A program made the position numbers and the translations under genes. Shown piece after piece: positions 2,610 through 63,727 of a stretch of DNA of 64,000 nt (the stretch's first letter is position 1; the number at the start of each line of letters is the position of its first letter). The notes under the pieces are model-generated. The model ran no database searches. It saw only the letters and a list, made by a program, of their open reading frames with translations, and was not told where the DNA came from. Source of the stretch: Crambe crambe (taxonomy: Eukaryota > Porifera > Demospongiae > Poecilosclerida > Crambeidae); the NCBI GenBank assembly GCA_963924555.1, contig OZ004583.1:6772582-6836581 (forward strand), in the 5' to 3' direction.

Positions 2610-4115
2610 AAGGGTGGAAGAAAAGATCCCTTTATTGCCAACAACTACTGTGGCATCACCATGAACTCAGTGCTATCGAAGGTCCTCGAGATTCTGGTCT
2701 GGTCAAGAATGGAGGGGTGCCTTGCCAAGGCTGGTTTTCCACACCTCAACCAATCAAGCATGTTGGAGCTGATACCATCTTTGCATCCCAAGAAATGATA
2801 GCAAGGTACATGAAGGGAGGTTCCACTGTGCACATGTGCCTCCTGGACCTCCAAAAGGCTTTCGATAGTGTGGAGTTCCCGGTGCTTCTAGACTGTCTAT
2901 TTTCCATTGGCATCAATGGCAAGACCTGGAGACTCATCAGGAACTGGTATGAAGGAGGAACGTGCAGTGTCCAAGTCGATGGTGCAGTTTCAAAACCATT
3001 CTCCATTGAGAGAGGTGTCCCCCAAGGGTCAGTCCTGTCTCCAACCCTCTTCAACATCATTATGGACCCCCTTCTGAAGTTGCTGGAATCCTCAGGCTTG
3101 GGGCTGTGTGTGAATGGCTTATACGGCGGTGCCTACCTTCATGCAGATGATGTTAGAACCCTCTCTGCCTCGGTGTCCTCTCTCCAGGCCCAGATCAATC
3201 TCGTACTCAGCTTTGCCAGGGAGAACTTTCTGCAGCTCAATCCGAGCAAATGCAAGATTGTATCTTTCAGTCAGGACAACAACATCCAACACCCTGCTTG
3301 CAAAATTGAGGGGGGCAAGTGGAACCGCCAAGTGCCTTGGCTACCAATGGAACCACGACCTCTCTGCTAAGACATCAGTGGAATATAATGTCTCAAAGGC
3401 AAGGAAGTCCTTCTTTGCGTATGGCAGTATGGGCCTCTTCCAGGGAGACTTGTCACCATTATCTGGAAGGCCAATGGTGGACACATGCATCCTACCTATC
3501 CTACTGTATGGTGCAGAGAATTGGTGCCTCTCACAGAACTCGATACAAGTACTATAGACTCCTTCCTCGGACTCCTGAAGTTCCCACAATGGTATTCAAA
3601 CACCCCAGCGTGCATAGCAGCTGGACAGAGATCTGCCAGAGCACTGTGCCTCACAAGGAAATTGAACTTCCTTCAGAAAATCTTGGCAAAAGACACCAAT
3701 GAGGCTGTGAGTGCCCAGACTTTAGCATCACTCTCAGACGACATCAACTCTACCTGCCTAGTTCGGGAATGTAGGGACCTGGTACATTACTTTGGAACAG
3801 ATTTCACATCAGGAAGGAACTGATTCCTGTCCCCACCCATGCGGGACATAAGTTCAAACGATCTTGACCTGCTGTTAGCCAAGCATGAAGGAAGGGCTGA
3901 AATGTCCATCGTGGTGGAGGTGGAGAGTGAAATTGGATGGCCATGATTATGGGACCTCATGCTAGACAACGGTGCCAGGTGCATTGAAGGGCTGAGGAAT
4001 CTCTTACGGGTGATTACATTCCCACCCCATGCCATGCATGCTTGCTCCTTATGTGAGAGAGAAGACATCTGCAGAGACTCCCTGCTCAGCCATGTCCTCA
4101 ACACTCACACCAACT
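2610..4115 (+). mobile_element. Non-LTR (LINE) reverse transcriptase relic
   Basis: Degraded reverse transcriptase in at least two frames. It starts with a 'NNYCGIT...LSKVLE' palm-entry motif near 2640. The 2717-3370 frame holds the palm motifs LDLQKAFDSVEF, GVPQGSVLSPTLFNI and an HADDV version of the YADD catalytic box. After a frameshift near 3320 the C-terminal region (LGYQW..., KARKSFF, ILLYGAENWC) follows to about 3830. The order fits CR1/L2-like elements. It lies antisense to the receptor genes, between gene 1's promoter and gene 2's last exon, and cannot be active as read. The motif set is what I see; the clade is inference. Confidence 0.85.
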
Positions 4116-38600: not shown

Positions 38601-39162
38601 AATCAATGGAACTGGAAAAAATTGATAATTGGTTTATTATTATTTTTTGTAGTTGGATAGTGAAGGTGTCTCTGGGTCCCACAGTTGATGATGCTGACAT
38701 TGAAGGATTAACAATTAGACAGAATACTATCATTTAGCTACATGTAATAATTATGATTTCCCAATGCTATCATGTAGTATTAATTAATTTTACCTATGTA
38801 TTGAAAATTTAATGCAATAGCACTCTTTGTGCCTGTGCTTCCACAACTGATATCGTTTCCTCCAAGTATTACTAAGGCAGACAAGTTGGCAGTTAGAGTA
38901 GAGTAGAAATTTCCTCTATCACGATTGCTTACACTGTAGGAAGCATTCATTATCTGAATCATCACCACCTCTCTCCAGGGGGACGATACTAGTGTCTCAT
39001 TGTATGGAAACTGATGGTCAGGGTCATATGGATAAGCAGCTATTATGTCATCATTGATGAACCATCTCAGTGTTGTGGATGGTAGGTCCACAGCAGTGCA
39101 GTTAAATGTCACTTGAGGACAAATCCCAGATGATGATGTATTAGGAGATAATTGAACAGAAG
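5667..39162 (-). CDS. Gene 2: Ig/FN3 three-pass receptor with three FYVE fingers and expanded tail
   Basis: Receptor-like membrane protein with a long cytoplasmic tail. 34 exons were placed by splice site and phase, and their summed length gives 1271 codons including the stop. Extracellular and membrane exons: 38794-39162, 38526-38611, 38244-38469, 37909-38202, 37728-37847, 37553-37663, 37312-37472. Cytoplasmic: 37156-37188, FYVE1, linker, fourteen cassette exons, FYVE2, four more small exons, FYVE3, and the end DNSSKEETTV. The signal-peptide exon was not found upstream. The first FN3 exon is lost. Introns hold many transposons, which accounts for the 33 kb span. The long model could in principle be two genes, but every junction is phase-compatible and FYVE2/FYVE3 match the paralogues' order. 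Confidence 0.72.
5871..6273 (-). CDS. Gene 2 FYVE finger 3 (two exons)
   Basis: Exons 6151-6273 and 5871-5970 supply eight cysteines in four pairs (VCHAC, YCRAC, VCEKC, VCPKC), split by a phase 0 intron after the fourth cysteine. The basic patch is reduced to SREYCRACGK, the WxxD motif is replaced by ELDI, and the RVC motif by MVC. Zinc binding is likely; PI3P binding is doubtful. Confidence 0.78.
6509..6592 (-). CDS. Gene 2 cassette exon, E class
   Basis: 28 codons, phase 0-0, starting ETPHDTNQVEVTD. It follows the E-class pattern ETxxD...VTDT...Q-N with a GTGATT donor. Low complexity, charged, presumably a flexible cytoplasmic linker. Confidence 0.68.
7409..7722. mobile_element. Inverted-repeat element, 52-base arms
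   Basis: Arms at about 7409-7460 and 7670-7722 (ttcttctaaatgaaagagtg... and its complement) are nearly perfect. Inside, two diverged copies of a 'gctctgctaactgtca' segment lie in tandem. No coding capacity, so a MITE in a gene 2 intron. Confidence 0.75.
7806..7874 (-). CDS. Gene 2 cassette exon, D class
   Basis: 23 codons, phase 0-0, starting DGGPKESENQEQK and ending NTSK. It fits the D-class pattern (D-x-x-P-x-E-S-x-N-Q). Its acceptor lies 20 bases from a C24 tract (G24 on the plus strand, 7894-7917), which would act in the polypyrimidine region. Confidence 0.68.
7894..7917. repeat. G24 homopolymer
   Basis: 24 consecutive G on the plus strand, C on the transcribed message. One of five such tracts in the window. 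Confidence 0.9.
8596..8886. mobile_element. Palindromic MITE
   Basis: Arms of about 88 bases at 8596-8684 and 8799-8886 (ttctcataaaattagcttat...ctagccttcatcagggtgat and complement), with a second inner palindrome around gcgcacatgcatat. No open frame of interest. Confidence 0.8.
8981..9061 (-). CDS. Gene 2 cassette exon, E class
   Basis: 27 codons, phase 0-0, EVPRDPPSFESTGSG... ending QPQK before GTGAGT. The DPP core is shared with five other E exons of this gene. Confidence 0.7.
9575..9624 (-). CDS. Gene 2 short exon after FYVE2
   Basis: 50 bases, phase 1-0, encoding GIKIVANTVTEESETEE between CAG and a GTATGT donor. It occupies the position of the Ser/Pro linker that follows FYVE1 and restores phase 0. 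Confidence 0.65.
9679..10439 (-). CDS. Gene 2 FYVE finger 2, canonical (two exons)
   Basis: Exons 10317-10439 and 9679-9781. Alone among the fingers here it keeps all three FYVE signatures: WNPD (the WxxD motif), GKRHHCRACGK (R+HHCRxCG basic patch) and QRVCSLCY (the RVC motif), with all eight zinc-binding cysteines and the LPY turn. By family knowledge this predicts PI3P binding and endosomal membrane contact. The split after CRACGK in phase 0 is the same as in the other fingers. Confidence 0.88.
11021..11137 (-). CDS. Gene 2 cassette exon, E class
   Basis: 39 codons, phase 0-0, starting ETSADSPNPEV and ending TEKSHE before GTGAGC. It is the last cassette before FYVE2 and longer than most E exons; its tail resembles that of 19717-19821 (NxTTEK). 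Confidence 0.7.
11792..11902 (-). CDS. Gene 2 cassette exon, D class
   Basis: 37 codons, phase 0-0, DERPDESGNQKQ...LIDKVKIM...SETPK. It combines the DERPDESG start with the IDKVK core seen at 13477 and 20121. An inverted fragment of this exon sits at 50590-50652. Confidence 0.7.
12275..12355 (-). CDS. Gene 2 cassette exon, E class
   Basis: 27 codons, phase 0-0, ETSQDPPNPTDVTNTD... ending NGTAEE. It is a near copy of 16788-16868, and their flanking introns match too, so exon and introns were duplicated together. Confidence 0.72.
12420..12676. mobile_element. MITE family A copy
   Basis: Shares the inverted ends 'gtagggatgaccattgctca' and 'tgagcaatggtcatcc' and the inner 'gggatcaatct...ccagccaacaatcccta' with copies at 16925, 31375 and 33461. 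Confidence 0.75.
12690..13045. mobile_element. MITE family B copy, inverted and partial
   Basis: Contains 'gcgatttacctgcttgc', 'ggtctgcac..tgtagtaggc', 'gtctaagtgggggaactag' and the hairpin end agagagagctatctttctctctgat. It matches 32726-32975, 33766-33990 and 39475-40000. Confidence 0.7.
13071..13142 (-). CDS. Gene 2 cassette exon, D class (tentative donor)
   Basis: 24 codons starting DERPDESGREER and ending KQKAG before a weak GTTACT donor in phase 0. Without splicing the frame stops a few codons later. The class match is clear, the donor is not, so this exon may be skipped or degenerate. Confidence 0.5.
13477..13539 (-). CDS. Gene 2 cassette exon, D class
   Basis: 21 codons, phase 0-0, DEPGIFDKVKAGVIDFFSGPK. 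It is a shortened version of the exon at 20121-20207. Confidence 0.7.
13849..15113. mobile_element. TIR element with a captured coding piece
   Basis: Ends cactgtaaaaaactgtgtg and its complement ...tttttttacagtgtg form terminal inverted repeats of about 20 bases, with CACAC-rich subterminal DNA. A plus-strand frame lies inside (14510-14803). No transposase is visible, so it is non-autonomous. Confidence 0.65.
14510..14803 (+). pseudogene. Gene fragment inside the 13.8-15.1 kb element
   Basis: 97 codons with a smooth protein-like composition (LAPSLMFIGRLGNVREVFLV, LVLLAAYYSYNMSYPPG, FLEYIIL) ending in a stop. The 'LAAYYxxNxxYPxG' pattern resembles the C-terminus of uncharacterised proteins common in fish and invertebrates, but this is from memory and I would not name it. 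Its N-terminal part is missing, so it looks like a captured 3' exon. Confidence 0.45.
16788..16868 (-). CDS. Gene 2 cassette exon, E class
   Basis: 27 codons, phase 0-0, KMSHDPPNLTDVTNTE... ending SGTTEE before GTGAGT. It arose with 12275-12355 by segmental duplication. Confidence 0.7.
16925..17190. mobile_element. MITE family A copy
   Basis: Same inverted-end structure as 12420-12676 and at the same place relative to the duplicated E exon, so it was carried along by the duplication. Confidence 0.72.
17943..18080. repeat. Minisatellite, about four units
   Basis: Four copies of '(g)gcaactggatgctgtgatcc(t)gct' spaced 36-55 bases apart with ATTATTT-rich spacers. Confidence 0.8.
18174..19208. 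repeat. Large palindrome with diverged arms
   Basis: The left arm (18174-18555) and right arm (18851-19208) are reverse complements with scattered differences, for example gccattttcatctgg against ccagatgaaaatggc at the outer ends. The loop (18589-18780) recurs in direct orientation just outside the right arm (19210-19395), giving an arm-loop-arm-loop layout. Confidence 0.8.
19717..19821 (-). CDS. Gene 2 cassette exon, E class
   Basis: 35 codons, phase 0-0, ETSHDPPNSTDVTNIPDDSH... ending TTEKPPK before GTGAGC. Confidence 0.72.
20121..20207 (-). CDS. Gene 2 cassette exon, D class
   Basis: 29 codons, phase 0-0, DEPGVLDKVKAGVTRVAGAI... ending SEAPK. It may form an amphipathic helix (DKVKAGVTRVAGAIDHIF). 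Confidence 0.72.
20710..20805 (-). CDS. Gene 2 cassette exon, N class
   Basis: 32 codons, phase 0-0, NKGAALDHKEPQQNSNEG... ending CRELIQ before GTAAGG. Confidence 0.65.
21180..22470 (+). mobile_element. Ty3/gypsy-type integrase relic
   Basis: Broken plus-strand fragments of a retroelement integrase lie antisense in a gene 2 intron. They include a zinc-finger-side fragment with RREISLAHKGHQG-like spacing near 21630, the catalytic core start (HVDFCGPFP near 21825 and IDPYSRFPEVE near 21875) and the core end (ATPHCTTGFSPAQFLFNR near 22165-22215). Several frameshifts and stops separate them. No LTRs were recognised. It is an inactive remnant. Confidence 0.8.
22485..22816. mobile_element. MITE with pogo/Tigger-like ends
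   Basis: The outer ends cagtgtaacctcgattatc and gataaccgaggttcgactg are inverted repeats, and 'cacttatccgg' recurs inside. It lies directly behind the integrase relic. An inverted fragment occurs at 40300-40465. The superfamily is inferred from the end sequence only. Confidence 0.65.
23155..23575 (+). repeat. Repeat shared with 54385-54640
   Basis: Both loci share, in the same orientation, 'gaagtatattctacc', 'gtgaagatttaaagc' and 'ctgtaaagaaagagagaacaagtggctgaaattctttgag'. The copy here has a frame reading NPVLPDKDVSREDLKL, which could be a captured coding tail; I do not recognise it. Confidence 0.55.
24023..24121 (-). CDS. Gene 2 cassette exon, T class
   Basis: 33 codons, phase 0-0, KEGTPEEFVIIEKDSQNQK... 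ending PPQITEQ. It and its flanks duplicate the 30538-30624 exon. Confidence 0.72.
24470..25175. repeat. Direct repeats of about 270 bases
   Basis: Two consecutive copies (from 24672 and 24940) of 'attgtaggcgcttg...tctaagtgcttgtggtaagta...ggttggaaccac...catgactcttgtctctgac'. Further copies lie at 31740-31915 and, diverged, at 40520-40700 and 41680-41850. Confidence 0.7.
25198..25362. mobile_element. Small MITE with pogo-like ends
   Basis: Starts tacagtggaacccctaaatg and ends gcatttagaggttctta, an imperfect inverted repeat; the inner part repeats 'gacacttttt'. Confidence 0.5.
26360..26610. mobile_element. MITE with GAAGTAGGGATAG ends and a C34 run
   Basis: Inverted ends gtgaagtagggatagccata and actatccctacttcac enclose about 200 bases; a C34 homopolymer (26572-26605) follows directly. 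A diverged third end lies at 26612-26640. Confidence 0.6.
26718..26801 (-). CDS. Gene 2 cassette exon, E class
   Basis: 28 codons, phase 0-0 if the GTACAT donor is used, EAFLNASAENGSADNQNGTT... The DNQNGTT core matches the E exon at 28417 and gene 3's 51171. Confidence 0.62.
27035..27106 (-). CDS. Gene 2 cassette exon, N class
   Basis: 24 codons, phase 0-0, NKDKELGDGVSKRLLEVYQ... ending KTPK before GTAAGT. Short charged helix-like segment. Confidence 0.7.
27107..28416. other. Gene 2 intron without recognised features
   Basis: AT-rich DNA with no supported exon, TIR element or RNA gene. Confidence 0.5.
28417..28521 (-). CDS. Gene 2 cassette exon, E class
   Basis: 35 codons, phase 0-0, ETSHARDHSNLTGIG... 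GNQDGTTKQQPQQK before GTGAGT. Glutamine-rich end. Confidence 0.7.
29886..29996 (-). pseudogene. Gene 2 possible alternative last exon, damaged
   Basis: Homologue of gene 3's tail exon (51702-51830). From an AG at 29997 the frame gives EPERVYDHTSHNTNKK... SDYSSLETLNKK and a stop. The stretch matching the NPNY motif lies just upstream (PNYS readable) but is preceded by an in-frame TAA, so the full exon cannot be used. A shorter version could still be spliced, because a CTAAC branch-like site precedes the AG. Ordered after the T exon on the message. Confidence 0.5.
30538..30624 (-). CDS. Gene 2 cassette exon, T class
   Basis: 29 codons, phase 0-0, TSEEFVMVDDSQNQQ... ending AAQITEQ. First cassette after the Ser/Pro linker; partner of 24023-24121. 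Confidence 0.72.
31375..31530. mobile_element. MITE family A, left half only
   Basis: Matches the first half of the full element at 33461-33760 and stops near the centre, where another repeat family (from 31540) begins. Confidence 0.65.
31955..32623. mobile_element. DNA element with 33-base TIRs
   Basis: Ends gtgaccggctctgggaaaac...tccggtg match with one difference over 33 bases and are flanked by ATAT on both sides, a possible target duplication. No transposase frame inside. It is inserted in the gene 2 intron within another repeat. Confidence 0.82.
32726..33995. mobile_element. Nested palindromic MITEs (B around A)
   Basis: Outer arms 32745-32975 and 33766-33990 are inverted copies of family B, with a GC-rich tip (gactcggacggccgcgcgcg). 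Between them lies a complete family A element (33461-33760), itself an almost perfect 300-base palindrome. Confidence 0.8.
33461..33760. mobile_element. MITE family A, full length
   Basis: Begins caagtaagggaaaaagcatt and ends with its complement. Both halves contain gtagggatgaccactgctc and gggatcaatcttttgttctg in opposite orientation. It serves as the reference copy for the partial ones. Confidence 0.85.
34191..34901. repeat. 142-base tandem array, five units
   Basis: Units start at 34191, 34334, 34476, 34618 and 34760 (aaaattagaaaaaataatgg). The middle copies are essentially identical; the last carries a few changes (gtcactgatttc). Each unit holds the GTAGGGATGACC motif and 'tttttttgcaggtaaatgat', which looks like a plus-strand acceptor fused to a donor. 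Confidence 0.92.
35749..35915 (-). CDS. Gene 2 Ser/Pro/Gln linker exon
   Basis: Phase 1-0 exon following FYVE1: GDIQVYGPGSSRFYQPTSSQ... rich in S, T, P and Q. A GTACGT donor after KLLT keeps phase 0; if it is not spliced, a TGA at 35740 would end the protein after LLTVR, giving a short isoform with one FYVE finger. Confidence 0.68.
36385..36981 (-). CDS. Gene 2 FYVE finger 1 (two exons)
   Basis: Exons 36865-36981 and 36385-36487. Eight cysteines (KCQQC, YCGAC, FCSVC, VCDSC), the CFCSVCT and NLPYDLKMKQKVCDSCY blocks typical of FYVE. The basic patch is weak (NRPHYCGACGK) and WxxD is absent, so PI3P binding is uncertain. Confidence 0.82.
37156..37188 (-). CDS. Gene 2 micro-exon
   Basis: 33 bases, phase 0-0, IELEEQKNTLD, between the last helix exon and FYVE1. 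Gene 4 has the same micro-exon (61641-61673); gene 3 lacks it. Confidence 0.7.
37312..37847 (-). CDS. Gene 2 three transmembrane exons
   Basis: Exons 37728-37847, 37553-37663 and 37312-37472: helices around GLLIIGIFFLILGILFFLV, VILPIFLWLVSVCLWIAVGG and the one after NTCDSKWQSN. The tail starts YKKAHSKKKMDLHYDNK, a basic cytosolic anchor consistent with the positive-inside rule. Confidence 0.8.
37909..38202 (-). CDS. Gene 2 juxtamembrane module
   Basis: Phase 1-1 exon of 294 bases: TFEDCVTTLLCSSILAEGPC, then YYFQVEVRVNSTIY. The upstream intron is 41 bases and must be spliced, since it is not a multiple of three. Confidence 0.7.
38244..38611 (-). CDS. Gene 2 FN3 domain (two exons)
   Basis: Exons 38526-38611 and 38244-38469: VPLIPEIIIF..., LTVTWQVK, NYTIFLNDSRGG, VSIYAANAFGQSN. 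The only intact FN3 domain in this gene. Confidence 0.75.
38650..38707 (-). pseudogene. Relic of lost first FN3 exon (gene 2)
   Basis: The minus strand still reads FNVSIINCGTQ, matching the YTVSAINCGNQ end of the intact exon, but the front of the exon and both splice sites are gone. Skipping it keeps phase 1. Confidence 0.7.
38794..39162 (-). CDS. Gene 2 Ig-like domain, subtype I
   Basis: Phase 1-1 exon of 369 bases: VTFNCTAVDL and ISCGSTGTK supply the disulfide pair, LRWFINDD the core Trp. Very similar to gene 4, only distantly to genes 1 and 3. Confidence 0.75.
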
Positions 39163-47381: not shown

Positions 47382-47422
47382 TTACACAGTTGTTTCCTCC
47401 CTAGATTCCATATGAAGATCAC
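47382..47422 (-). CDS. Gene 3 terminal exon, EETTV end
   Basis: Reads DLHMESREETTV and TAA after a CATAG acceptor, phase 1. Same ending as genes 2 and 4. Confidence 0.85.
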
Positions 47423-50400
47423 CTATGAAAGACAATGTGATATAGCTAGGATCATATTAGCTATGGAACCTCTAATAAAGAAACCTCAGAAATAATGGCA
47501 CCTTGGGGTATTAGCTATCATACCTCGCTCTTGTTCATCCCCCCAGTTTATGCGATCCTTTAGATAAAACTGCATGCAGCTATGACTTAGCAATGTCTTT
47601 AGTTAACCTTTCTTTTCAGACTCCTTGTGGTGGCAGTGAGGACAAACCATCATGTTATTTTCTGAACATTGAAAGTGAGTCTTGCATTTTTCACAAACCT
47701 ACAGAATGAGTTGGTTTAGCATAATAACTCTAAAGAGAACAAATTAGGTCAATTTAAAGCCTACTTGCAGTGCTACCACTCTATATGCCATACAGCAGAT
47801 TTATTGTTTACACAAGGAGCCAACAAGGGAGGAGCGAGGTACTATTCATATCACATCTCAATTGCAAGTGTTAAAAACTTCCTCAATAACATACAGTTGT
47901 AGTGGAATCATTCTGAGGAGTAAGTTTGAGTGACTCGAAATCAGCAAGAGTACTAACTGGATCTTGTCGGGAAGGATGATACACTTCCATTCCTATGTAG
48001 GAAAATAACCAAGTCAATTATACTATTCAGGTTCATTTTCACAACAAACATACTCCCTATAACCTATTAGCTGTATCCATGGTAACAAGGTGTGGCTGCG
48101 AAAGTGGGCAAGGTCAGATAAAATCCCCCCCCCCCCCCCCGATAAAACAATAAAATTTCTAAATGAAACTTAAACTCAGTTATCAAAAATTGCATAAAAT
48201 TCTAGCATTAAATTACATGATAAAAATGTGGAGAGAATTATTGGTAGAGACAATTGATATTATTGTAGCTACTTACTAATAGATGTATACTATAGCTACA
48301 CACATGAAAGGTGCTATGGTTGTAAACATCAGAGAGGATAAAATCTAGATAGCTACTGCCTGAGCACCAAACACTCTGATCATAGCTATAGCTAGTTGGC
48401 TTTGTCAGAATGGTAGCTAGCTATATTGAGCAGAATCTTACGCTGTCACAGTTCAAAGGTAAGCACATGCATGCATGTCACTCATTGCATGACAACAAGT
48501 AAGGGCAGAGCTTGATGTGCCCAAGTGTTTTAGCTTTGAGCTATTTGCTGGACTCAACATCGAACCCGAGTCCAACAAAAAGGATTAACAAAAAGAGAGA
48601 CAGAGAAGTATGGTTCAAAGGTCAATCACTACAGAGAGAGCAACAAACAAGGCACCAGAGACTGAAGTAAGCCTAACTAGCCTGACATCATGACAAAAAC
48701 AGAAGTATAGGCTGGCAAGGGAGCAACATGCAAGGAGCCAGAGACTGCCTAATTAACAAGCAAGGTGCTGATATAGCATGCAGTTACAGATACATGCTGG
48801 TGCAGGCTAGTAGCTACATAATATTTTTTACAATAGATTTTGCTGTAGATGAGTCTGAAAGACAAGTGTAGTGATCACTTACCTTTTTCGATGCATTCTT
48901 TGCAACAAGAATGACACACTCTTTGCTTCATTTTCAAATCGGCTTTAAAGACCGTGCAGGCTGAACAGAAATACTGTAAAATAATGATTAGCTAAAGGTC
49001 TTATTATTACTATGAAGAAGGCGCTATGGTACAGAGTAACTCCATAATTATGGGGAATTGTCCTACTGCAAAATTCATAATTGAAACTTGCTTGATTGTA
49101 ATTCATAATTTGGAGTTTCCAAGATAGGTGTCAAAGAAACACTTGTTATTCTAGCATGCATCAGTTTGTATAGTTAAATTTGTGACAGTACTTGGGAAAA
49201 GGTACCTTTTCATGTAAAACATGTAAAACATTAAAAGCTGTTAAATGCTTATAAAATATTTACAAGCTACAATATAAGATGTAAGATTCAATTAAGTATA
49301 ACTCAGGAACAAAATGGAGTATTAATTTGATTTAAAAGCCATGTAAATCTCCAGATTAAGAGCTTTAGAATGATACCAATAACTCCGTTTTGAATTTCTG
49401 CGTGAAAAGGTACCTTTTTTCCCCAAGTACTGTCACGTTTTATAATTAATGTATGGCTAGTTCACCTTGCTACATGCACTGCAGCGGTAAAATTCATTGA
49501 TTTTCCATGGAACTATAGAGAATTCTGATCCACACTGCTGACATTTATTAGCTTTTTCTTCACTAGGTTTGGAATGTCTGACTTCATCATCTGGCTGCAA
49601 AAGAATAAACATGCTTATTGCATTCAGGGGCACTGGGCATGTCCTGAGTTGTGGGTTTGAAGCCTATTTAATCGAGACCATAGCATATATAGCAAATTTT
49701 CAGTGGATATAGTTTCCATAGGAAGCTTGAGGTTAAATTGAGTGGGATCAAGAGAAGACTATTGCAGCAGCTTGTACATGCACCACTATGTATTTTGGCA
49801 CATAATAGATTTGCATTATCAGTTGGGTTGACAGTTAACACTGTCTAAGGAGTTTGTACTGAAGATCTGAAAATGCATGTCAACGTATCAATCCTGCTAG
49901 CTAGCTAAGTTATAAAAAATAGGTGGTAATGCCATGGTCACAGTTAAATATGACAGTAGCCTTTGTTCTTTGTTGGCTCTCCTCAAATGACCATTAATTC
50001 ACCTGCTTCGTAGCCTCTGCTCTCACTGTTTAAGATCTCTAGTCTTTTTACCTTTTCAAGCTACGTAACACATAGCTACTTGCTACATACCTAAGCTGTA
50101 GTATAAGGTCATAAAGGATGCATATAACTAGCTATATCATTCTAACTATGTATAATAGACAAGTAGGAATGGCTGTGGCATTACCTCCTGATTTTAATAA
50201 CCACACCCATAAGCTACTTTACTCCCCATGAGAGGCCATGGCTCAACAGGAGCACTCATGGGGAGTGAAGTAGCTTAGGTAGCTTAAGTAGTTAGGTTCC
50301 CATTTTTGGTTATGTGGATTATTAGCCTCGTCCCCGGCTCTCGCATGCGCAAGGCTAGTGGATCATGTGATCTCGCTTAAAGCCATGCTATATTATACTC

Positions 50401-53400
50401 GAGAAATAAGTACCACTGAAACTTACCCAATGATGGCATGATATCTCAATTGAAACACAACATTCACATGAATATGAATGCATTCAACTTCAATGTATTT
50501 CACTAAGTATGTAAGTGACCTCTATAAGTGAAGTTTTGATAAGCAGTTTTTTTGATGTCTAGGTGAATAGAATACGACCATCTATTTTACATACTTATAG
50601 GATAAAAGACCAGATGAGAGTGGAAACCAAAAACAAACAACTCTAGGAGTACTTATTGAATGATTCTTATGTGCATGCATCCAGGGGGAAAAGGGGGGGG
50701 GGGGGGGGGGGGGGGGGGTTCAAACAAACTATATTAGATCCACCACTAGCAACTGCAACTATTATCAACCCTTAGACACGCCCTTCATTTTCTACGTGGT
50801 TTGTGATTGAAGTGACATGATGTTTACACATGATACTAGCTATAGGTCATCTATAGTTTAAATAGGCGGTGCTGCGTGGTTCGTTGAGTGCCTGGCCTTA
50901 ATTGCACCGAGAAGTGATTCAACACTATATTATACCGTTCTCCGTCAATCCCATGAAACTGCTAGAAAAGTCTTTCTGTCACTCTGTTACTACGTGCGCA
51001 GGCCTACAGTTTCCTATGGATAAGCAGCTCCTACAATCCATTATCAAGTTTGTGCATGCACAATATGCATGTGCAGGGTGCTACTAATCAGGATAATTAT
51101 TGCATGAGGGATAACTTGATCGTATAATAATTATTGAGAGATTCTATATTTTAAGTAAAATGTAACTTACTTTTTGTTCATTTGCTCCATCTTGATTGTC
51201 AGATGTGCCACTAGGTCCATTGGTACTTAGATTGGGTGGGTCCTACATATATTAAATAGAATGCATGATGTCATAGCTATGTAGAGTTTCACCACAACTG
51301 CACCTAGCTACATAGCTAGATTTCAATGAAACTAGATAGGTACGTAGCTAATCGATTAAAGTACAACTAGATTTTTTTTTTTTTAATTGAATGCAATTGC
51401 TAGAGTGTATACACCTCATGCATGAATAGTCGACATGACTGTAGCAATGTGTGCTTAACTATACAGCTACGTATGACATACTATGCATAGCCTGTATGGA
51501 GTGTTATTAGCACATCAATAAAAAAATGCACAAAAGTAACACAAAATGTCTGTATCACACCACTAGAAAGAAGAAGAACTAAACAGAGCTTAGAACAAGA
51601 GGAATAGAGGTAGCTAGCTAGTTATGTAAAACAAGGAATGGGTGGTAATCTTCACTGTAACAACAGTACTCATTACGCTGTAGAAGGCCACAAAGTTAAT
51701 GTTAAGATGAGTAGTCGCCCACAAATGCTTTCTTGTTTGCACTACTTCCACCATGACTGGTGAGATCGTACACATGTTCAGCTTCCACCATAGAGTAGTT
51801 AGGGTTATTAAATTGCATAGCAGTTGATGTCTAATAATAAAATTTTACAACTTTTAACAAGAAAATACTTAGTCTTTGAAGTGCTTGGAATGGAATAAAG
51901 GAATCAGGAATTTTTATCAGTCTCTCACCCATGAATATCTGACACCGATATATAGTTGAAGCTAATATTATGGCTGTAATGCTGAAAGGATTGAAGTATA
52001 TATAGCCTATGATACACATTCATTTAAGGAAAGAGACCACTATTATTTTGAATGCTTAACAGAATGAAAGTGTTCCCTTTCCAAGATCCAGTCACATTAT
52101 GTCATTGATGTATGCACATGTTAAATATGTGGTCGCACTCACAGTGAATGGCTTTCAGTGCATAAATAGTACAGAGACCTACCTCATCATTTTGCATTGC
52201 AAAAGGTATAGCTACCACATGTAATACATACAGGCTTTGTAGTGGAACCAGTCTTTGAAGAAGAATGTTGAGTAGAAGTAACTGAAGCTGGTTGAGAAGA
52301 AGCTGGTTGATAAGATTGAGAGGGAGGTCGAACACCAGGACCACACACTGCTATTCCTGTGGGGAGGGAGGGAGAAAGATTACTAAGGCTATAACATCAT
52401 CACACAAAAATTATAAGAAATCTTCCAAGAGTCCTCTAAACATTCGGACCCGATAATTTTTTGATCCCCTATAGCTAACTGTTAAATCTGGCTGGACTGT
52501 ATTTTCTAGCTATAGCTGCATAAGAAATCCTTACTTCAAGGTTTACAAAAATTAATCTTGATAGCTAGAATTATAATAGTTGAAAATCCATGCCATTTCT
52601 TTTAAAAAGATGTCCACATGCAGTTTATTGTTGTCCATTTTTTGCTTTAGAAACTCATGCATGTAGAGATCACTTACCTTTTTTTTTACATTCTTCATAA
52701 CAAGTATCACACACTCTTCTTTTTTGGAAGAAGAAATTCTTTGAATAAGGAAGTTCAGCTTTATTGGTAGTGCACAACGAACAGTAACTCTGTAAAAATT
52801 AGTAATCATTGTATTCTGAACAAGGTAGAGGAAAGTAATGTACGGATGACTTACTGTAGATGGTAAAGAGTAAGAATAAGAGGTTTAGAATAATTATACA
52901 AGGACTAAATCAAGTGAAGTTAGTGTGTAGATCCCTTGGTCTCAGTGTCTAACATAGAAATCAATCAGTTGCCTTGGAAATTATGACTGTGCGCATGCTC
53001 AGTACAGAGTGAGATAACTCTATGAGATATAATGGGCAGATAGATGCTCGGCCTATGGCAAGATACTATTGTAACTATATCAAGTATAAATAATATCGCC
53101 ACTATCCAAGTGAGTGAAGCATTTGCCCAGGATCTTAGTCTCTACTCTTGAAATCTAGTTAGGATACATGTACATAGGCTACTTATAGCTAGTATGAAAT
53201 CAGTATATCCTCTGCTACGAATGACTTGAAGGTGCTTTCATAAGTGACTGCCACTGTACTCACCAATAACTGTTAGCCTCGGCCCCAGGCACTCTTTTGC
53301 GACCTGTCTAAAAGAGAGCCTGGTATCAGTTGTGTGCCCAAAATTCTGAGGTTCCGTATATTCTTGGTACACTCCCCGTAAATGGATTTCATTGAAAAAA

Positions 53401-56400
53401 TAATCTGAGTACCAAACAATAAAACCAGCCTAAAGCCTTGTCCCAGGCTCTATTGAAAATAGAGCCTGGTATCAATAATTGTTTGCGCATGTCCAGTTTT
53501 TCCATGTGCATGTTCAGTTTTTCTGTACCATTCACTACTGCCAACATGCACAGAATTGATGTTAATTTTTGACGGCTCTAGAGAGTCTATGGTGCTGTTT
53601 TTGAAGAAGAGGAGTTTTGATACAGCTTTTAAACCACTATGTTGTTAAGCTAAGTGAATGATTACTCTGATTAGCTACATTCTGATCTGTCAATATCCAG
53701 TGTGGATCTCTGGAGCATCTGAAACAGGTGTTTGATCGGTTTCAAGGGATTGGGTGAAGCACATCCTCAGAAATACGGGTTTGCATACCCTGAGGTTCCA
53801 TTCCATTGGACACATACTGAATATTTAATTTTTCTATTAATTGGCTTAGTTTAAAATAAAATCTTGCTACTAGAACTAGGGCTAGGGCTAAATTAGCTAC
53901 TATAATAATTACTGTACTTCACCTTGCCACATGCATCACAGTAGTGACGTGGATTCCCTAAAAAAGATAATTCTGATTGACACTGCTGACATTCGGAAGC
54001 TTTCTTCTTGTTTGGTTCATTATGTCCAAAGTCATCTTTGATTGGCTACAAAAGAACAAACATGCTTATTTCATTCAGAGGTTTCACTATGATAATTGTA
54101 TGACTCCAGAGTTATATGTTTATAGCTAGCCTAGCAATTCAATAGCTGATTTAGTGGAAAGTGTGTGTTTATAGGAGTACTGCAAGTTGAGAAGGCCCGT
54201 GGGCCCAAGGTCACATACCAAGGTGTATAGGCCCTAAATGCATGGCAATTATATTAATTGGTCCAACCTCTCCAGGAGGTGGATATATGATTCATCAACT
54301 TCAAATACATGGTCCAAATTTCTTCATTCTTGACCGTTGAAATGTAGCGCAGTTTAATTAAGTTCGCAATACGTACTTGTGTGCATATTGTTTGCCATTA
54401 ATTGCACACCACTACATGCAGCTGCCACTCTACTGAAGTATATTCTACCAATCCAGTGCTTAGCTCTTTATCTTGTGAAGATTTAAAGCATAGAAAATCA
54501 AAGAATGTTTGGAATCTATGATAGCACAACAAATTGAAGAGCCATTGCATCCATCACTGTAAAGAAAGAGAGAACAAGTGGCTGAAATTCTTTGAGCAAT
54601 GTGTTTAACGATTGCAGCCATCTTAAGAACAACAACACGTCATTCATATTTTTTATGAGGAAATCATTCTGTCAATATTTCCAGCTATATGGTACTGTTG
54701 GTAATTAGAAATAACAACAATAACAAATATCCACAAACATTAACTCTGCATGCTGACAACTGCAAAATTATCATTATAGCTACATACCTCATAACAGATG
54801 GCCACAAGAATAACAGCAACAAATAGAAGGGAAATGAAGGAGAGGATAAATGCTGCAATAATGAGGTTGTCTCTGTTGGACTGCCATTTTGAATCACATG
54901 TGTCTATGAATACTAAGTTTAAATAATTATAACATTTTTGAATATCATCCTTACTTTTTTGTGGTCCCACTACACCACCAACTGCAATCCATAAACAAAG
55001 AGACACCAACCACAAGAAAACAGCTACTAGCAAGAGGACAAGTGATGCAATCCACACACGTTTAGTGCCTGAATACCAAAAAAATAAATGATTAGCTTAT
55101 AGGTCTGGAAAATCATGACTTACTTGCAGTGTTAGATTTTATAAAAAGTGGTATCCACACAATTACAATGATAATGCCTAATATCAGAAACATCACACCC
55201 ACAATCAAAAGCCCAATGTTGGTATCAGTCAGATGAGTGGCAACTATAAGGAAGAAATCATTTTTATAATAATAAACAGGAACACAACAAATGTGAACTT
55301 TACATTCTCCAGTCATGAAACTTCTTCTTGACCTGTAGAAAGTGGAATTTACCCTCACTTCAACCTGAAAGTAGTACTGAGTTGAAGCATGCATCAGTGG
55401 CAGGGGAGAGGGTGAGTTCAAGGACACATTCAGGTGGTTGTCAAAGTTCTCATAGGAGGAGTCCTGGCCATATTGGATAACACAAGGTCCTTCAGCCAGG
55501 ATAGAGGAGCAGAGAAGAGTAGTAACACACTCTTCAAATGTTAGTGGAAGACTTAAAACTTCTGATTGAAGTGAGTTGCCTGTGATAGAATGATTTACTT
55601 GAATAGAAATAATAATCGACATTTGTAAATGTACAATACCTATTGAAATTGAATCTCCACTATTGGATTGTCCAAAAGCATTGACAGCATAGATGGAGAC
55701 AAGATAGCTTTGATTTGAGGAGGAGGTGGTGAAGGAGGTGGAACAGAGATTATTATTGCAGCTATCAGAGTTAACCACCCTCTCTTCCAACCTCCCCCCT
55801 CTGCTATCCTCCAGAAATATTGAGTAGTTGAGAGAGTTATCAAAGGAACAAACATTAGATATGGACAAATGCTGAAGAAATATGAAAATAGAGGTGAAGG
55901 TATATACCTAAAAATGATCGTTATAATTACCTTTACTTGCCAAGTTACTGTCAGCTGACTTAGCGAATTTTCTTCAATATACATAGGAATTAGTACAATC
56001 TCAGGAATCAGTGGAACTGAAAATGACAGCCAAGACAGGTTATTGGCATTAAACCTTGTGAGTTTATTAAGTATGCACCTTGTGGGTGGACTGTGATAGT
56101 ACTCTCAGCCCCTTCTTGATTCCCACAGTTGATAGCACTGACTGTGTAGGAGTAGAGTGTCTCCAGGACCAGTCCAGAGCAGTTGTACTCCTCACTGGGA
56201 CTCACCAGTTGCTCACTGGGACAGGAGGAGGGGGTGGGGCTCAGTACTACACGATAGTTTGTCACGTTATTTCCAGAGGAAAAGGAGTCAAAAGATACTA
56301 TTACACCTCCAGGAGAGATGACGAGGGAACATTCCAGAAAAGGACGTGTGGGAGGAGCTGTACAATAAGGGAACATGCAATGTAAGGGGGAGAAGCTATA

Positions 56401-57205
56401 AAGATAATAATTATTATACTCGATATGATATGCATGTGTACATCCTTATCATCACCACACCCTTCACACACATGAAAAGGTTCCCACCAAGCAAATAATG
56501 GTTCCTGACGTATGACATATGCATAAATACAGTACCCTTATTCCACTTTTTGCATGAAGGGTGAGTGTAGGGAACATTAAAATTTAGTACCAATGATATC
56601 AATGCGATAGACAGTGCTATTCACATTAGCTCCATCAGCACACTGGATTGTAGCGCCAATTAAAAGCATTGCATCACTAGTCAATGTAGATGCAATATTT
56701 ATACGAAATTGGTTGCTTATAGATACATTGATGACTAACACCTCGACACCAGGCAAGGGAGGGTTTAGGAGGATACTTCTTGGGAAAGTATGTGATGGAT
56801 TAAAGGCATACTCTCCACGATGATCAGTGTCATTCACTCTCCATATAAGTGTATTGGGTATATCAGTTCCCACACAAGTGAACTGGATTGGTCCTGGACA
56901 GTTCAATGAAGTGTTGGGCATCAAAGCGATCCCTGCATGAAAAAAAACAAAAAAAAAAAAACAAAAAAAACCTAGCTACATCACAGTGAAGTTTCCCTGC
57001 AACCTAGCTAGCTACATTTTACTATAGCTTATTATTAAGCTATGTATTGAGCTAACTAGCTACTCAGCCTAGCTACTTACTTGAGTCCTGACTATATTGA
57101 CTGACAATCCCAGCTCTAACTAGAAATCTATAGCTAACCTCCTAAAGTAATCATTGGTGTCCATGATATCCAACATCCTAATAGAAGAAGGACTGTGCAA
57201 TCCAT
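47382..57205 (-). CDS. Gene 3: complete Ig/FN3/three-pass/FYVE receptor
   Basis: Best supported gene, 18 exons and 843 residues: 57139-57205, 56591-56932, 56079-56357, 55931-56016, 55640-55871, 55304-55597, 55124-55243, 54955-55068, 54788-54903, 53923-54045, 52678-52789, 52232-52356, 51171-51242, 49466-49594, 48883-48973, 47895-47992, 47608-47698, 47382-47422. All junctions are GT-AG and phase-matched. Order: signal peptide, Ig, FN3, FN3, juxtamembrane module, three helices, FYVE1, linker, E cassette, FYVE2, linker, half FYVE, GDLHMESREETTV. A possible alternative last exon (51702-51830) would give a 712-residue form with one FYVE finger. By family knowledge FYVE domains act at endosomes and an ETTV end can bind PDZ scaffolds; an endocytic receptor role is inference. 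Confidence 0.85.
47608..47698 (-). CDS. Gene 3 half FYVE finger
   Basis: Only the C-terminal half exon is present: VCEKC and VCPHC pairs, then HHKESEKK. No exon supplying the first four cysteines is found between 47699 and 47894, so this finger has four of eight ligands and cannot fold as a normal FYVE. Confidence 0.7.
47895..47992 (-). CDS. Gene 3 second linker exon
   Basis: 98 bases, phase 1-0: GMEVYHPSRQDPVSTLADFE... QNDSTTT before GTATGT. Shares the GxxVYxP start and NxSTT end with gene 2's linker. Confidence 0.7.
48125..48140. repeat. C16 homopolymer
   Basis: 16 consecutive C in a gene 3 intron. Confidence 0.85.
48883..49594 (-). CDS. Gene 3 FYVE finger 2 (two exons)
   Basis: Exons 49466-49594 and 48883-48973. 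Eight cysteines are present (KCQQC, RCSAC, FCSAC, VCHSC), with KMKQRVCHSC retaining the RVC motif. The basic patch has become NEFYRCSACSK and the LPY turn is lost, so lipid binding is unlikely as read. Confidence 0.75.
50440..50652 (+). pseudogene. Inverted copy of gene 2 D exon and intron
   Basis: On the plus strand this matches the minus-strand region 11830-12060 of gene 2: intron, then the start of the DERPDESGNQ exon (here DKRPDESGNQKQTTLG), ending in a stop. It is antisense within gene 3's intron, next to G26. Confidence 0.75.
50693..50718. repeat. G26 homopolymer
   Basis: 26 consecutive G about 40 bases from the end of the inverted exon copy. Confidence 0.88.
51171..51242 (-). CDS. Gene 3 cassette exon, E class
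   Basis: 24 codons, phase 0-0, DPPNLSTNGPSGTSDNQDG... before GTAAGT. The only cassette of this kind in gene 3, against eight E exons in gene 2. Confidence 0.72.
51702..51830 (-). CDS. Gene 3 possible alternative last exon with NPNY/YSMV motifs
   Basis: After a TTATTATTAG acceptor in phase 0: TSTAMQFNNPNYSMVEAEHV, then YDLTSHGG... to VGDYSS and TAA, 43 codons. NPNY fits the NPxY endocytosis/PTB motif and YSMV the YxxPhi adaptor motif, overlapping on the same tyrosine. Its position between the linker and the E cassette means it would replace all later FYVE exons. A damaged homologue is in gene 2. Confidence 0.62.
   Translation of the reverse strand, partial: TSTAMQFNNPNYSMVEAEHVYDLTSHGGSSANKKAFVGDYSS
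52232..52356 (-). CDS. Gene 3 Ser/Gln linker exon
   Basis: 125 bases, phase 1-0: GIAVCGPGVRPPSQSYQPAS... GSTTKP before GTATGT. Counterpart of 35749-35915. Confidence 0.7.
52678..54045 (-). CDS. Gene 3 FYVE finger 1 (two exons)
   Basis: Exons 53923-54045 and 52678-52789. Eight cysteines (ECQQC, YCDAC, YCSLC, VCDTC), the ELPYSKN turn and QKRRVCDTCYEEC with the RVC motif. The basic patch is NPRHYCDACGK; WxxD is absent. Confidence 0.82.
53270..53820. mobile_element. Repeat with CCCAGGC hairpins
   Basis: 'gcctcggccccaggc' and 'ccttgtcccaggctctattgaaaatagagcctgg' give hairpins, and the 'ctgaggttcc' motif near 53350 returns near 53800. It fills most of the intron between the two FYVE1 exons. Similar pieces are at 29270 and 50325. 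Confidence 0.5.
54385..54640 (+). repeat. Second copy of the 23.2 kb repeat
   Basis: Shorter and more degraded than 23155-23575, same orientation, lying where genes 2 and 4 have their IELEEQ micro-exon. Confidence 0.55.
54788..55243 (-). CDS. Gene 3 three transmembrane exons
   Basis: Exons 55124-55243, 54955-55068, 54788-54903: helices around GLLIVGVMFLILGIIIVIV, LVLLLVAVFLWLVSLCLWIA and AAFILSFISLLFVAVILVAI. The third exon ends ICYE, so the cytosolic tail starts almost at the membrane with the FYVE exon. Confidence 0.82.
55304..55597 (-). CDS. Gene 3 juxtamembrane module
   Basis: Phase 1-1 exon, 294 bases: TFEECVTTLLCSSILAEGPC and YYFQVEVRVNSTFY. The 42-base intron upstream is a multiple of three without a stop. 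Confidence 0.7.
55640..56016 (-). CDS. Gene 3 second FN3 domain (two exons)
   Basis: Exons 55931-56016 and 55640-55871: VPLIPEIVLIP, LTVTWQVK, NYSIFLEDSRGG, VSIYAVNAFGQSN. Confidence 0.77.
56079..56357 (-). CDS. Gene 3 first FN3 domain
   Basis: Phase 1-1 exon: PPTRPFLECS, VTNYRVVLSP, YTVSAINCGNQEG. An FN3 domain with two extra cysteines (SSCPSEQ, YNCSG). Confidence 0.78.
56591..56932 (-). CDS. Gene 3 Ig-like domain, subtype II
   Basis: Phase 1-1 exon, 342 bases: FTCVGTD and IQCADGA cysteines, LIWRVND Trp. Differs from gene 1 at few positions. Confidence 0.77.
57139..57205 (-). CDS. Gene 3 first exon, signal peptide
   Basis: ATG at 57205-57203: MDCTVLLLLGCWISWTPM, a typical signal peptide core, then a GTTAGC donor in phase 1. 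Confidence 0.82.
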
Positions 57206-60280: not shown

Positions 60281-63200
60281 CTATGAAAGAAAACGTGATA
60301 AAAAATAATATATCAACTGATAATTAACCACCTGAAAAATAAGGATACCTTAAGGTTTATATCATACTTCCACTCTTGTTTGATAATTATTATGATCCTT
60401 ATAGCAATGTCTAGCTATAATAGTTTTAATAACCTTTCTTTTTGGACTCCCTGTGGCAGTGAGAACAAACCATCACAGTGTTTCCAATACATTGAACATA
60501 AGCCTTGTTTTTAGAACATTTCTTGCAAACAACCTACAGAATGAGTTAATTGGTTCAGTTGTATAGTAGTTATGATAACTCGCCAAACTAGAGAATGTGG
60601 TACCAACTGTGGTAAATAGTTATGTTATGTTAGCAACTCACCTTACCGCATGCTCGGCAATTATTACGAGATTCAGAAGTAACTTTTGTAGTGCAAACAT
60701 AACACACATCACTTTCTATGTCCCATTCAGGTTCTTTGGCTCCAAATAATGCTGGAGTAGCTATGATCTTTATACATAAGTAATAGCATCACTTAATAAC
60801 ATTGACTAGCTGCTAGCTATTTGAAAACTTGCTGCCTTTGTATGTATTGTGAGGTAGTAAAAAGCAATTTGAAATTTTCCACAGTACTTTCAGGCCTCAC
60901 TAGCCAATATTGCAATGCAGACATTAGGTGTGCTTTATCTAGAGTATCGTTATTGAATGTAATTTTGATTTTAGTGGGTCGGTAGGGCCCGAGCAACATA
61001 AAATCTTATTGGTATGGCCTTAATGATGATAGACAGTATACTTATTTCTTATTTTCCAGCTATGTAAAATTGCTATTGTTAGATAGTACGAAATTAACCA
61101 TTCAGTTAGAAAGGTGCCTTATATGTACTTATCAACAATGAAACTGTGTAGAATGAGTCAGATCCAGTATACACTACCCCACTAACCCTCTCTTTCTAAA
61201 TAAAGCACACAAAACCTGTATTATTAAGCAGCAGTTGAATAAAAGGGGAAATGTTTGTTATTCTGGTAATAATAATAAGCCCTTTTGGTTGGCCTAGAAT
61301 TAAAATTTGCAGTCAGAGCTAGTTATAGCTAAAGAATGAATTAGTGTAGTGTTCACCTTGCCACATCCACCACAGTAGTGAGGTCGATTCCACTTGATTA
61401 TAGAGAATTCTGATCCACACTGCTGACATTTAGATGCTGGTTCCTGACTAGGTTTGTCATTTCCAAATTTCTCCTGCATAAGAACAAAACAAATGCTTAC
61501 TGAATTCAGGGTTTCACTCTGACAATTGTCTAGTCCAGAGTTGTGGGTTTGTAATTTTTGAGCGTTGAATGAAAGGTTACATTAGAGGGACCATGAGAGA
61601 ACTATGAGCTACATGCATCACTACACTAAAATTGACACACATCAAAGGTATTTTCCTGTTCTTCAAGTTCAATCTGGTTAGGAAGAAGTCATATGCTTAA
61701 ATATAGATGAATTACATACCTCAAAGAGTACAGTAATCTAAGACTAGCTGAAATGGTCTTAAGTGAAAGAGCTAAACTAAAGCTGCTTATAATACTAGCT
61801 AGTACGTAACTGCAAGAGGCTAGGACAATCTGGTTGTGTCCAGGGAAAATATTATACCTCATTATCACAATGTAAACCCATTTTTTTCTTGAAATGAGCT
61901 TTTTTGTAGATGATAATAATAGTAGCAGTGACAAATAGTAGAAGGGAGATGAAGGAGAAGACAAATGCTGCTATAATGAGGTTATCTCTGTTAGACTGCC
62001 ATTTTGAATCACATGTGTCTACAAATAATTAATTAGCATAAACGTACCTATAAATGAATCTTTCTTTCTAAACTATTGTTTTTATCCAGCTACGTATGTA
62101 TGAATGTTATTCTAACTTATCTGTGGTTCCACTACAACACCGACTGCAATCCATAAACAAATAGACACCAACCACAAAAATACTGGCAAAATGACAAGTG
62201 ACAACACAATCCACACATGTTTATCACCTGAAACAATTATTAATAACAAAGAACTAATAATTAGAATTTAAGTTATATCTCTATAAATTGTGACTTACTT
62301 GCTCTATCACACTTTCGAAATAGTGGTATCCACACAAGGAAAATAAGAATGCCTAATATCAGAAAAAGTAAGCCAATAATCAAAAGCCCAATGTTGGCAT
62401 CAGTCAGACGAGTGGCAACTGTAAGGAAGAAATCATTCCATAATCATTATAAGCAAGAGCACCACGGATGTAATTTTACATTCTCCAGTCATAAAACTTA
62501 TTCTTGAGATGTAGATAGTCAAGTTTACTCTCACTTCAACATGGAAGTAGTATTGAGTCAAAGCATCCATCAGTGGCAGGGGAGAGGGTGAGTTCAAGGA
62601 CACATTCAGGTGGTTGTTAAAGTTTTCATAGGAGGAGTCCAGGCCATATTGGATAATACAAGGTTCTTCAGCCAGGACAGAGGAGCAGAGAAGAGTAGTA
62701 ACACAATCTTCAAATGTCAGCAACCTCCATTTGTAGTGAATTTTCTGTGATAGAATAATGAACTTAAAAATCATAGTCATTTGTAAATTAATGTTGTACC
62801 TATAGCAACTGATTCTGCAGTATTAGATCGTCCAAAAGCATTGACAGCATAGATTGAGACAAGATGGCTTTGATTAGAGGAGGACAAGATGTCAAAGGAG
62901 GTGGAACAGAGATTATTGCAGCTATCAGAGTTAACCACCCTCTCTTCCAACCTCCCCCCTCTGCTGTCATTCAGGAATATTGAATAGTTGAGAGATTTGT
63001 CAAAGAAACAAACATCAGATATAAGCTGAAGGAAATTTATCAGTAGAGATGACAGAAAATTATGATCATGTACTTACATACCTTTACTTGCCAAGTCACT
63101 GTCACTTGACTTAGTTGATTTTCATTGTTATATGTAGGAAATACTACAATCTCAGGAATCAGTGGAACTGAAAAAATAGTCAGATAGGTTACTCATTAAT

Positions 63201-63727
63201 ATTGGTTTATTATATTTTGTAGTTGGTTAGTGAAGGTGAGTCTCTGGGTCCCACAGTTGATGATGCTGACATTAAAGGATTATCAATTAGACAGAATACT
63301 ATCATGTTGCTATGTATGATAATTATGATTTAATTAGACTGATAGTATTAATTAATTTTACCTATGTATTGAAAATTTAATGCAATAGCACTCTTTGTGC
63401 CTGTGCTTCCACAACTGATGTTGTTTCCTCCAAGTATTACTAAGACAGACAAGTTGGTGGTTAGAGTAGAGTAGAAGTTTGCTCTATCACGACTGCTGTC
63501 ACTGTATGAGGCCTCCACTATCTGAATCATCACCACATCTCTCCAGGGGGGTGATGCTAGTGTCTCATTGTATGGAAACTGGTGGGTAGGGATGTATGGA
63601 TAAGCAGCTATTGTGTCATCATTGATGAACCATCTCAGTGTTGCGGATGATAGGTCCACAGCAGCACAGTTAAATGTCACTTGAGGACAAATCCCAGATG
63701 ATGTATTAGGAGATAATTGAACAGAAG
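60237..63727 (-). CDS. Gene 4: Ig/FN3/three-pass/FYVE receptor, frameshifted, 5' exon off window
   Basis: Exons: 63362-63727, 63082-63167, 62800-63025, 62480-62762, 62299-62418, 62117-62227, 61858-62018, 61641-61673, 61357-61473, 60642-60767, 60434-60533, 60237-60280. Order: Ig subtype I, one FN3, juxtamembrane module, three helices, micro-exon, half FYVE, FYVE, GDLHMKSNAEETTV. Exon 62480-62762 lacks 11 bases present in gene 2, which puts a stop a few codons later, so the gene as read cannot make a membrane protein. All other exons are open and well spliced, so the loss is recent, or this is an allele or assembly error. It lacks gene 2's cassettes altogether. Confidence 0.75.
60434..60767 (-). 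CDS. Gene 4 FYVE finger 3 equivalent (two exons)
   Basis: Exons 60642-60767 and 60434-60533: PEWDIESDVCYVC, NNCRACGK, VVCKKCSKNKAYVQC, MVCSHC. Eight cysteines; the WxxD position reads WDIE and the basic patch SESRNNCRACGK, partly degraded. Confidence 0.78.
61357..61473 (-). CDS. Gene 4 orphan FYVE first half
   Basis: KFGNDKPSQEPASKCQQC then NRPHYCGGCGK: the first-half exon of FYVE1, without any second-half exon before the next finger. Spliced in phase 0 to the next first half, it leaves four zinc ligands unpaired. Confidence 0.72.
61641..61673 (-). CDS. Gene 4 micro-exon
   Basis: 33 bases, IELEEQENTFD, phase 0-0, as in gene 2. Confidence 0.7.
61858..62418 (-). CDS. Gene 4 three transmembrane exons
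   Basis: Exons 62299-62418, 62117-62227 and 61858-62018, helices as in gene 2 (GLLIIGLLFLILGILIFLV; VILPVFLWLVSICLWIAVG; AAFVFSFISLLLFVTATIII), then KKAHFKKKMGLHCDNE. Confidence 0.78.
62480..62762 (-). pseudogene. Gene 4 juxtamembrane exon with 11-base deletion
   Basis: Compared with 37909-38202 the segment between the LQMEV codons and the TFEDC codons lacks 11 bases, shifting frame and meeting TGA within the next few codons. The rest of the exon is intact in the other frame (TFEDCVTTLLCSSVLAEEPC). Confidence 0.75.
62800..63167 (-). CDS. Gene 4 FN3 domain (two exons)
   Basis: Exons 63082-63167 and 62800-63025: VPLIPEIVVFP, VTVTWQVK, NYSIFLNDSRGG, VSIYAVNAFGRSN. Confidence 0.73.
63217..63278 (-). 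pseudogene. Relic of lost first FN3 exon (gene 4)
   Basis: Same remnant as in gene 2 (NVSIINCGTQ readable), with the same truncation, no acceptor and no donor. Confidence 0.68.
63362..63727 (-). CDS. Gene 4 Ig-like domain, subtype I
   Basis: Phase 1-1 exon, 366 bases: VTFNCAAVDL and ISCGSTGTK, LRWFINDD. One serine codon shorter than gene 2. The signal-peptide exon should lie beyond 63727; none could be supported up to 64000. Confidence 0.75.

Follow-up and report, generated by a model that had tools for sequence, protein, structure and literature searches.

FYVE-type zinc fingers usually mark endosomes. FYVE proteins of the EEA1, ZFYVE16 and HRS type are soluble and have no membrane passes; what they have in common with R5, the gene described here, is the FYVE fold. 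Protrudin (ZFYVE27), which acts at ER-endosome contacts, resembles R5 in spanning the membrane and in carrying a FYVE finger without PI3P signature motifs, lacking all three where R5 keeps RVC, according to the available sections of the sources (PMC9692390, PMC3247280). Unlike R5, it is an ER protein and has a single FYVE domain and four predicted passes, and in the accessible part of the same source it is the single human transmembrane membrane-reader listed with FYVE (PMC9692390). Receptors of the Hydractinia Alr family, encoded in the allorecognition complex, are single-pass, unlike the three-pass R5, and the available excerpts on them mention no FYVE tail. The vertebrate paired receptors KIR, LILR and SIRP are also single-pass, and their tails are ITIM or adaptor-binding, not FYVE. 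Like the family described here on contig C5, they combine like ectodomains and different tails in one cluster, a likeness that does not imply homology. To our knowledge, protrudin has no Ig/FN3 ectodomain and does not belong to a tandem receptor family. A review of invertebrate Ig proteins covers sponge adhesion, and FYVE does not occur in the portion available (PMC11999971). A literature search on such receptors and on sponge receptor clusters, with coverage that excludes most subscription papers, returned no title describing an Ig/FN3-FYVE architecture.

We analyzed a 64,000-nucleotide window of Crambe crambe DNA (C5:6772582-6836581, in a 143-Mb assembly of 119 contigs). An earlier note on this sequence had described a phase-consistent exon chain forming a receptor of 843 residues. 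Exon joining and Pfam searches bore out the chain, from its signal peptide through the Ig-like and FN3-type exons to the three hydrophobic segments and the FYVE halves, as well as the single in-phase frame; its length had to be corrected to 825 residues. The gene, R5, runs along the minus strand from 57205 to 47603 in 17 GT-AG exons with matching phases. Its product begins with a signal peptide, continues through an Ig-like part and FN3-type parts to three membrane passes, and ends in two FYVE-type fingers plus half of another:

57139-57205, minus strand: exon 1, start codon (ATG at 57205) and signal peptide (hydrophobic at 3-21), GT donor in phase 1
56591-56932, minus strand: exon 2, Ig-like domain, C-W-C invariant over six members, with no Pfam match over the cut-off
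56079-56357, minus strand: exon 3, FN3 domain 1, fn3 29.9 bits in the whole protein and 25.2 bits alone
55640-56016, minus strand: exons 4-5 (56016-55931, 55871-55640), FN3-like domain 2, with fn3 and IFNGR1_D2 matches below cut-off
55304-55579, minus strand: exon 6, membrane-proximal domain, probably FN3-like, with weak fold matches; the marker exon of the census below
54788-55243, minus strand: exons 7-9 (55243-55124, 55068-54955, 54903-54788), three membrane passes, present in all eight copies
52678-54045, minus strand: exons 10-11 (54045-53923, 52789-52678), FYVE-type finger 1, Pfam FYVE 46.1 bits
51171-52356, minus strand: exons 12-13 (52356-52232, 51242-51171), linker
48883-49594, minus strand: exons 14-15 (49594-49466, 48973-48883), FYVE-type finger 2, degenerate, Pfam FYVE 26.2 bits
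47895-47992, minus strand: exon 16, linker
47603-47698, minus strand: exon 17, with the second half of a third FYVE unit and the TAA stop at 47605-47603

Searched as a whole model against 5.8 billion proteins, R5 returned nothing at E <= 0.001. Long G and C homopolymer runs lie within its introns, at 50693-50718 and 48125-48140.

Exon 2 appears to be Ig-like from its C-W-C pattern and from sub-threshold profile matches, Pfam not confirming the assignment. Cys19, Trp30 and Cys97, which make up the C-W-C signature of the Ig fold, are invariant in an alignment of six members. No Pfam Ig family scored over its cut-off, the top one being Ig_3 with 13.1 bits (cut-off 30). Against PDB profiles, 17 of the 18 rows were Ig-containing molecules by name, every one with a sub-threshold E over 0.04, and an AlphaFold2 model built from 4 sequences had a mean pLDDT of 38.7, too poor for use. 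The Pfam fn3 cut-off of 25 was reached by exon 3 only, at 29.9 bits, with exons 4-5 scoring 15.7 bits. Exons 4-5 (56016-55640) also matched IFNGR1_D2, the model of interferon-gamma receptor D2, with 21.4 bits, short of its cut-off of 28. Exon 6 had no match in Pfam. Its structural model was weak (pLDDT 62.4), and the best PDB matches, none of them at E <= 0.001, were for the most part FN3 domains, from neogenin and from cytokine receptors, so that the exon is probably FN3-like.

Three hydrophobic segments follow at residues 431-469, 467-504 and 516-548. A MARVEL-like identity for these passes was considered and not adopted, the Pfam score being 15.2 bits against a cut-off of 32.8. Ten of the 12 N-glycosylation sequons in R5 fall within the ectodomain. 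Three passes after a cleaved signal peptide would place the tail of R5 inside the cell.

Pfam FYVE matched the R5 protein with 45 bits over two stretches (cut-off 27.8). When the fingers were scored singly, finger 1 exceeded the cut-off with 46.1 bits and finger 2, with 26.2, fell just short of it. The nearest solved structure to finger 1 in the PDB was ZFYVE16 (3t7l, E 7.4e-8). Fingers 1 and 2 both retain the eight zinc-binding cysteines in four CxxC pairs, and the RVC motif is kept (RRVCDTC and QRVCHSC). The claim that the receptor carries its own endosome-recognition fingers is only partly supported: the zinc-binding cysteines and RVC are in place, but R5 has neither WxxD nor an intact R(R/K)HHCR, the corresponding stretches reading NPRHYCDAC in finger 1 and NEFYRCSAC in finger 2. 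Protrudin is described in the available part of its source as lacking all three signature motifs and yet binding PI3P in vitro (PMC3247280), so motifs cannot decide whether the R5 fingers would bind this lipid.

The FYVE cassette consists of three exons, namely first half, second half and linker, with phases 0-0, 0-1 and 1-0. A first half for the third FYVE unit, of which exon 17 is the second half, was sought at R5 and not found. A FYVE profile search of 214 kb around the window yielded 23 second-half rows and 24 first-half rows, or 22 without two fragments. WxxD and (R/K)RHHCR occur together in 5 of the 22 first halves (6879733, 6783008, 6762130, 6758031 and 6708969), and two representatives of these canonical units scored 51.9 and 70.8 bits with Pfam FYVE. 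The canonical units lie far from any receptor exon (25 kb in the copy R4) and are candidate members of receptor transcripts. ZFYVE16 (3t7l) is also the best solved relative of the canonical unit beside R4.

The R5 protein ends in ...CPHCHHKESEKKG, followed by TAA at 47605-47603. An EETTV end at 47382, read previously as a PDZ ligand, was rejected, since the frame closes at 47603 and reaching EETTV would need a splice past an in-frame stop; a PDZ-ligand C-terminus is thus not supported. The frame also closes near this point in the terminal exons of other copies. Seven of the eight terminal exons of the exon-17 type in the array end within 2 residues of the KG that finishes the finger, and the eighth (6874143) extends 17 residues beyond it. 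R7, a near-identical copy, has EGTNV in place of the EETTV stretch.

R5 belongs to a tandem family. An exon-by-exon search of 214 kb identified eight copies, R1-R8, within C5:6.69-6.89 Mb, all on the minus strand and all with ectodomain, passes and FYVE exons in this order. Four of them (R3 in part, R4, R5 and R6) lie wholly or partly inside the window, where the elements beyond R5 are:

60432-63727, minus strand: R6, with Ig, FN3, three passes, a FYVE first half (ends 61357) and a terminal FYVE unit (60749-60642, 60530-60432)
35749-39162, minus strand: R4, Ig exon through FYVE finger 1 and linker
5869-10433, minus strand: FYVE units downstream of R4, candidate R4 members across a 25-kb gap
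10433-10317 and 9775-9677, minus strand: R4-side unit with WxxD and KRHHCR
6255-6151 and 5967-5869, minus strand: R4-side terminal FYVE unit
139-2493, minus strand: R3, exons 1-9, its FYVE exons lying outside the window (L017)

The second half of finger 1 was looked for in R6 and not found, and the exon-by-exon search found no exon 3 in R4 or R6. Also absent from the copy models are exons 1 and 2 in R7 and R8, exon 1 in R4, exons 1 and 6 in R6, and exon 2 in R2. Two other features of this part of the window were seen: a tandem array of seven 142-bp units beside the R4 tail (34058-35051), and, between R3 and the R4-side FYVE units, a long open frame on the plus strand (2612-3370) that by eye looks reverse-transcriptase-like (VPQGSVLSPTLFN, YLHADDV).

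Because the first splice-site script had imposed R5 phases on the seven other copies, the test was repeated blind to phase. The best site in the vicinity of each homologous boundary was in phase at 71 of 72 acceptors and at 66 of 70 donors, and two further boundaries had no GT. This pattern indicates that splice phases are kept across copies beyond chance. Sequence comparison pointed to a mosaic origin for R1. Its exons 3-6 are near those of R2 (dS 0.10), and its FYVE part is near R4 and R6 (dS 0.06 and 0), compared to 0.67 to R2. These relationships suggest that pieces have been exchanged between copies. The idea that the passes and FYVE exons of R1 moved as one block was dropped, as exon 7 groups with R4/R6, together with the intron between exons 9 and 10, while exon 8 groups with R5/R7 and exon 9 with neither.

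To place this family in its surroundings, exon 6 was used as a marker across the genome, where it had at least 117 matches, 115 on C5 and 2 beyond the cluster on C9 (G000:C9:2722922 and 2951182). With the C9 rows and one split row omitted, 114 copies lie at C5:6.64-8.15 Mb. Each was assigned the first tail exon met downstream on its own strand ahead of the following exon 6. The tail exons came from 49 FYVE-type places, combined manually, and from 40 rows on C5 among 55 matches to a tyrosine-motif tail exon. By this rule, 14 receptors have a FYVE-type tail (11 of them within 5 kb), 32 a tyrosine-motif tail and 67 no detected tail; one is mixed, a tyrosine exon lying 0.9 kb away from it and a FYVE match 67 kb. 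FYVE-type tails are one of the classes of tail in a large cluster of receptors, a setting that had gone unnoticed in the earlier note. Thirteen matches to the tyrosine-motif tail exon at G000:C13:5845295-5903324 perhaps mark a second cluster with the same tail.

Repeated motifs in the tyrosine tails include NQVYG and EKNxVYG. In one such receptor, L025 at 8.11 Mb, exon 6 is 82-87% identical to that of seven FYVE members, and exon 2 is 74% and 72% identical to those of R4 and R6. The tyrosine tail joins at phase 0 in L025 and at phase 1 in L024, with the junctions read by eye. Also by eye, the tail of L029 has EEEYSxL-like stretches and that of L027 has YDTL, and none was recognized in L028. 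At 7.868 Mb, a terminal FYVE exon is 87% identical to that of R5. By position it was paired with an exon 6 lying 9.7 kb upstream, for which identity is 36%, the pattern that tail exchange would give. Protein searches with exons 3 and 6 singly returned ten and four matches, respectively, on contigs of three different lengths, all resembling the R1-R8 receptor family. One of these matches, P0003, comes from another assembly, where it sits on a 766-kb contig; at best 92% identical to any place found here, it may be an allelic or related-species copy.

The weakest point of the R5 model appears to be the join between exon 9, the last of the passes, and exon 10, the first FYVE exon. In the alternative of two genes, a receptor would end soon after exon 9 and be followed by a FYVE gene with its own start, the two having been duplicated as a pair. 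Read past exon 9 into the intron, the R5 frame gives CYEVCSYNDNFAVVSMQS and then a stop. AATAAA or ATTAAA occurs in this intron in R1 (1), R2 (5), R5 (1), R7 (3) and R8 (3), and R2, R6 and R8 have an in-frame ATG just 5' of the first FYVE exon. The introns of R1, R4 and R6 share a 10-codon open segment with an ATG that ends at an in-phase GT. In the phase-blind test, the exon 9 donor was in phase in only 2 of 7 copies (2 of 5 sites, two copies having no GT). The donors used, which are GTATNN in 8 of 8 copies, lie further on and were found with the phase imposed or, in R2 and R8, set by hand; the far end of exon 9 varies between copies. Against two genes, the acceptor of the first FYVE exon is phase 0 in 8 of 8 copies, a stop directly abuts it in R3, R5 and R7, and in R1 and R4 the stretch from the last stop to the exon contains no in-frame ATG, so five of the eight FYVE parts cannot start there and need an upstream exon. 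No candidate start common to all eight copies was seen among the first six candidates listed per copy. The intron measures 330 bp in R4, 384 in R6, 425 in R1, 593 in R3, 742 in R5, 886 in R7, 1502 in R8 and 3821 in R2. In R3, R4 and R6, it holds no AATAAA or ATTAAA, and a 3' end, a promoter and a start would have to fit into 330-593 bp. We consider an arrangement of two genes unlikely, and very unlikely that FYVE genes are simply interspersed by coincidence within the receptor cluster. FYVE matches concentrate in a single part of this cluster, and 49 of 5000 circular shifts reached the observed ten receptors with a nearby FYVE exon (mean 4). However, FYVE exons lie within 3 kb downstream on the same strand for 10 of the 114 receptors, with none upstream or on the opposite strand, and boundaries and phases are conserved within the FYVE part. 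One gene with an ectodomain, three passes and a FYVE-type tail, presumably expressed as a single transcript, is well supported but not proven.

The main rival to a working FYVE-tailed receptor grants the receptor gene and takes the fingers to be decaying relics with no lipid or zinc function. Finger 2 and the terminal half of R5 are degenerate, the first half of unit 3 is missing from what was found at R5, as is the second half of finger 1 in R6, and for some pairs dN/dS is near or over 1. Across nine comparisons, dN/dS of the ectodomain was 0.31-0.59, and for the FYVE part it was 0.36-1.40 in the comparisons having a value; between R5 and R7, fingers 1 and 2 show 7 replacement changes and no silent ones. 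Constraint on the FYVE fingers thus appears weak. On the other hand, the four cysteines are invariant in 17 of 17 aligned first halves and 17 of 17 aligned second halves, although the profiles used for finding these exons themselves contain the cysteines. The rows omitted from the alignments (5 of 22 and 6 of 23) are near-identical to others except for two broken ones, the first half 6702192, which is cut short, and the second half 6700327, which is missing one cysteine. The frames of the R5 model are open, and the five canonical first halves keep WxxD and (R/K)RHHCR. Weighing these observations, we regard decay as rather improbable.

On balance, we lean toward reading R5 as a type I three-pass receptor gene in a tandem, paired-receptor-like family with exchangeable tails. 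Its Ig/FN3 ectodomain would face outward at the cell surface to meet a ligand, and its tail would be built from the three-exon FYVE cassette. Since the receptor core also occurs with short tyrosine-motif tails, the family can be read as paired receptors whose ectodomains are alike and whose outputs differ. The members with tyrosine tails would use phosphotyrosine signaling. In FYVE-tailed members with a canonical unit, phosphoinositide binding could steer the internalized receptor, or the membrane that it touches, at endosomes or contact sites; a degenerate unit, as in R5, might instead make zinc-finger contacts with proteins or membranes.

A broader scenario, which we put forward tentatively as possible but doubtful, is that more than 100 Ig/FN3 receptors in an early animal have been wired by exon shuffling after the last pass, joining alike ectodomains to phosphotyrosine tails or FYVE arrays. 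The same recognition event could then be signaled at the surface or routed through phosphoinositide-marked endosomes, which would make this an ancient paired-receptor system that has an endosomal arm and possibly serves self/non-self recognition. If true, an Ig/FN3 ectodomain fused to FYVE arrays would be a new coupling of recognition to membrane identity, and a cluster with differing tails on one core would offer a natural experiment on the evolution of receptor outputs.
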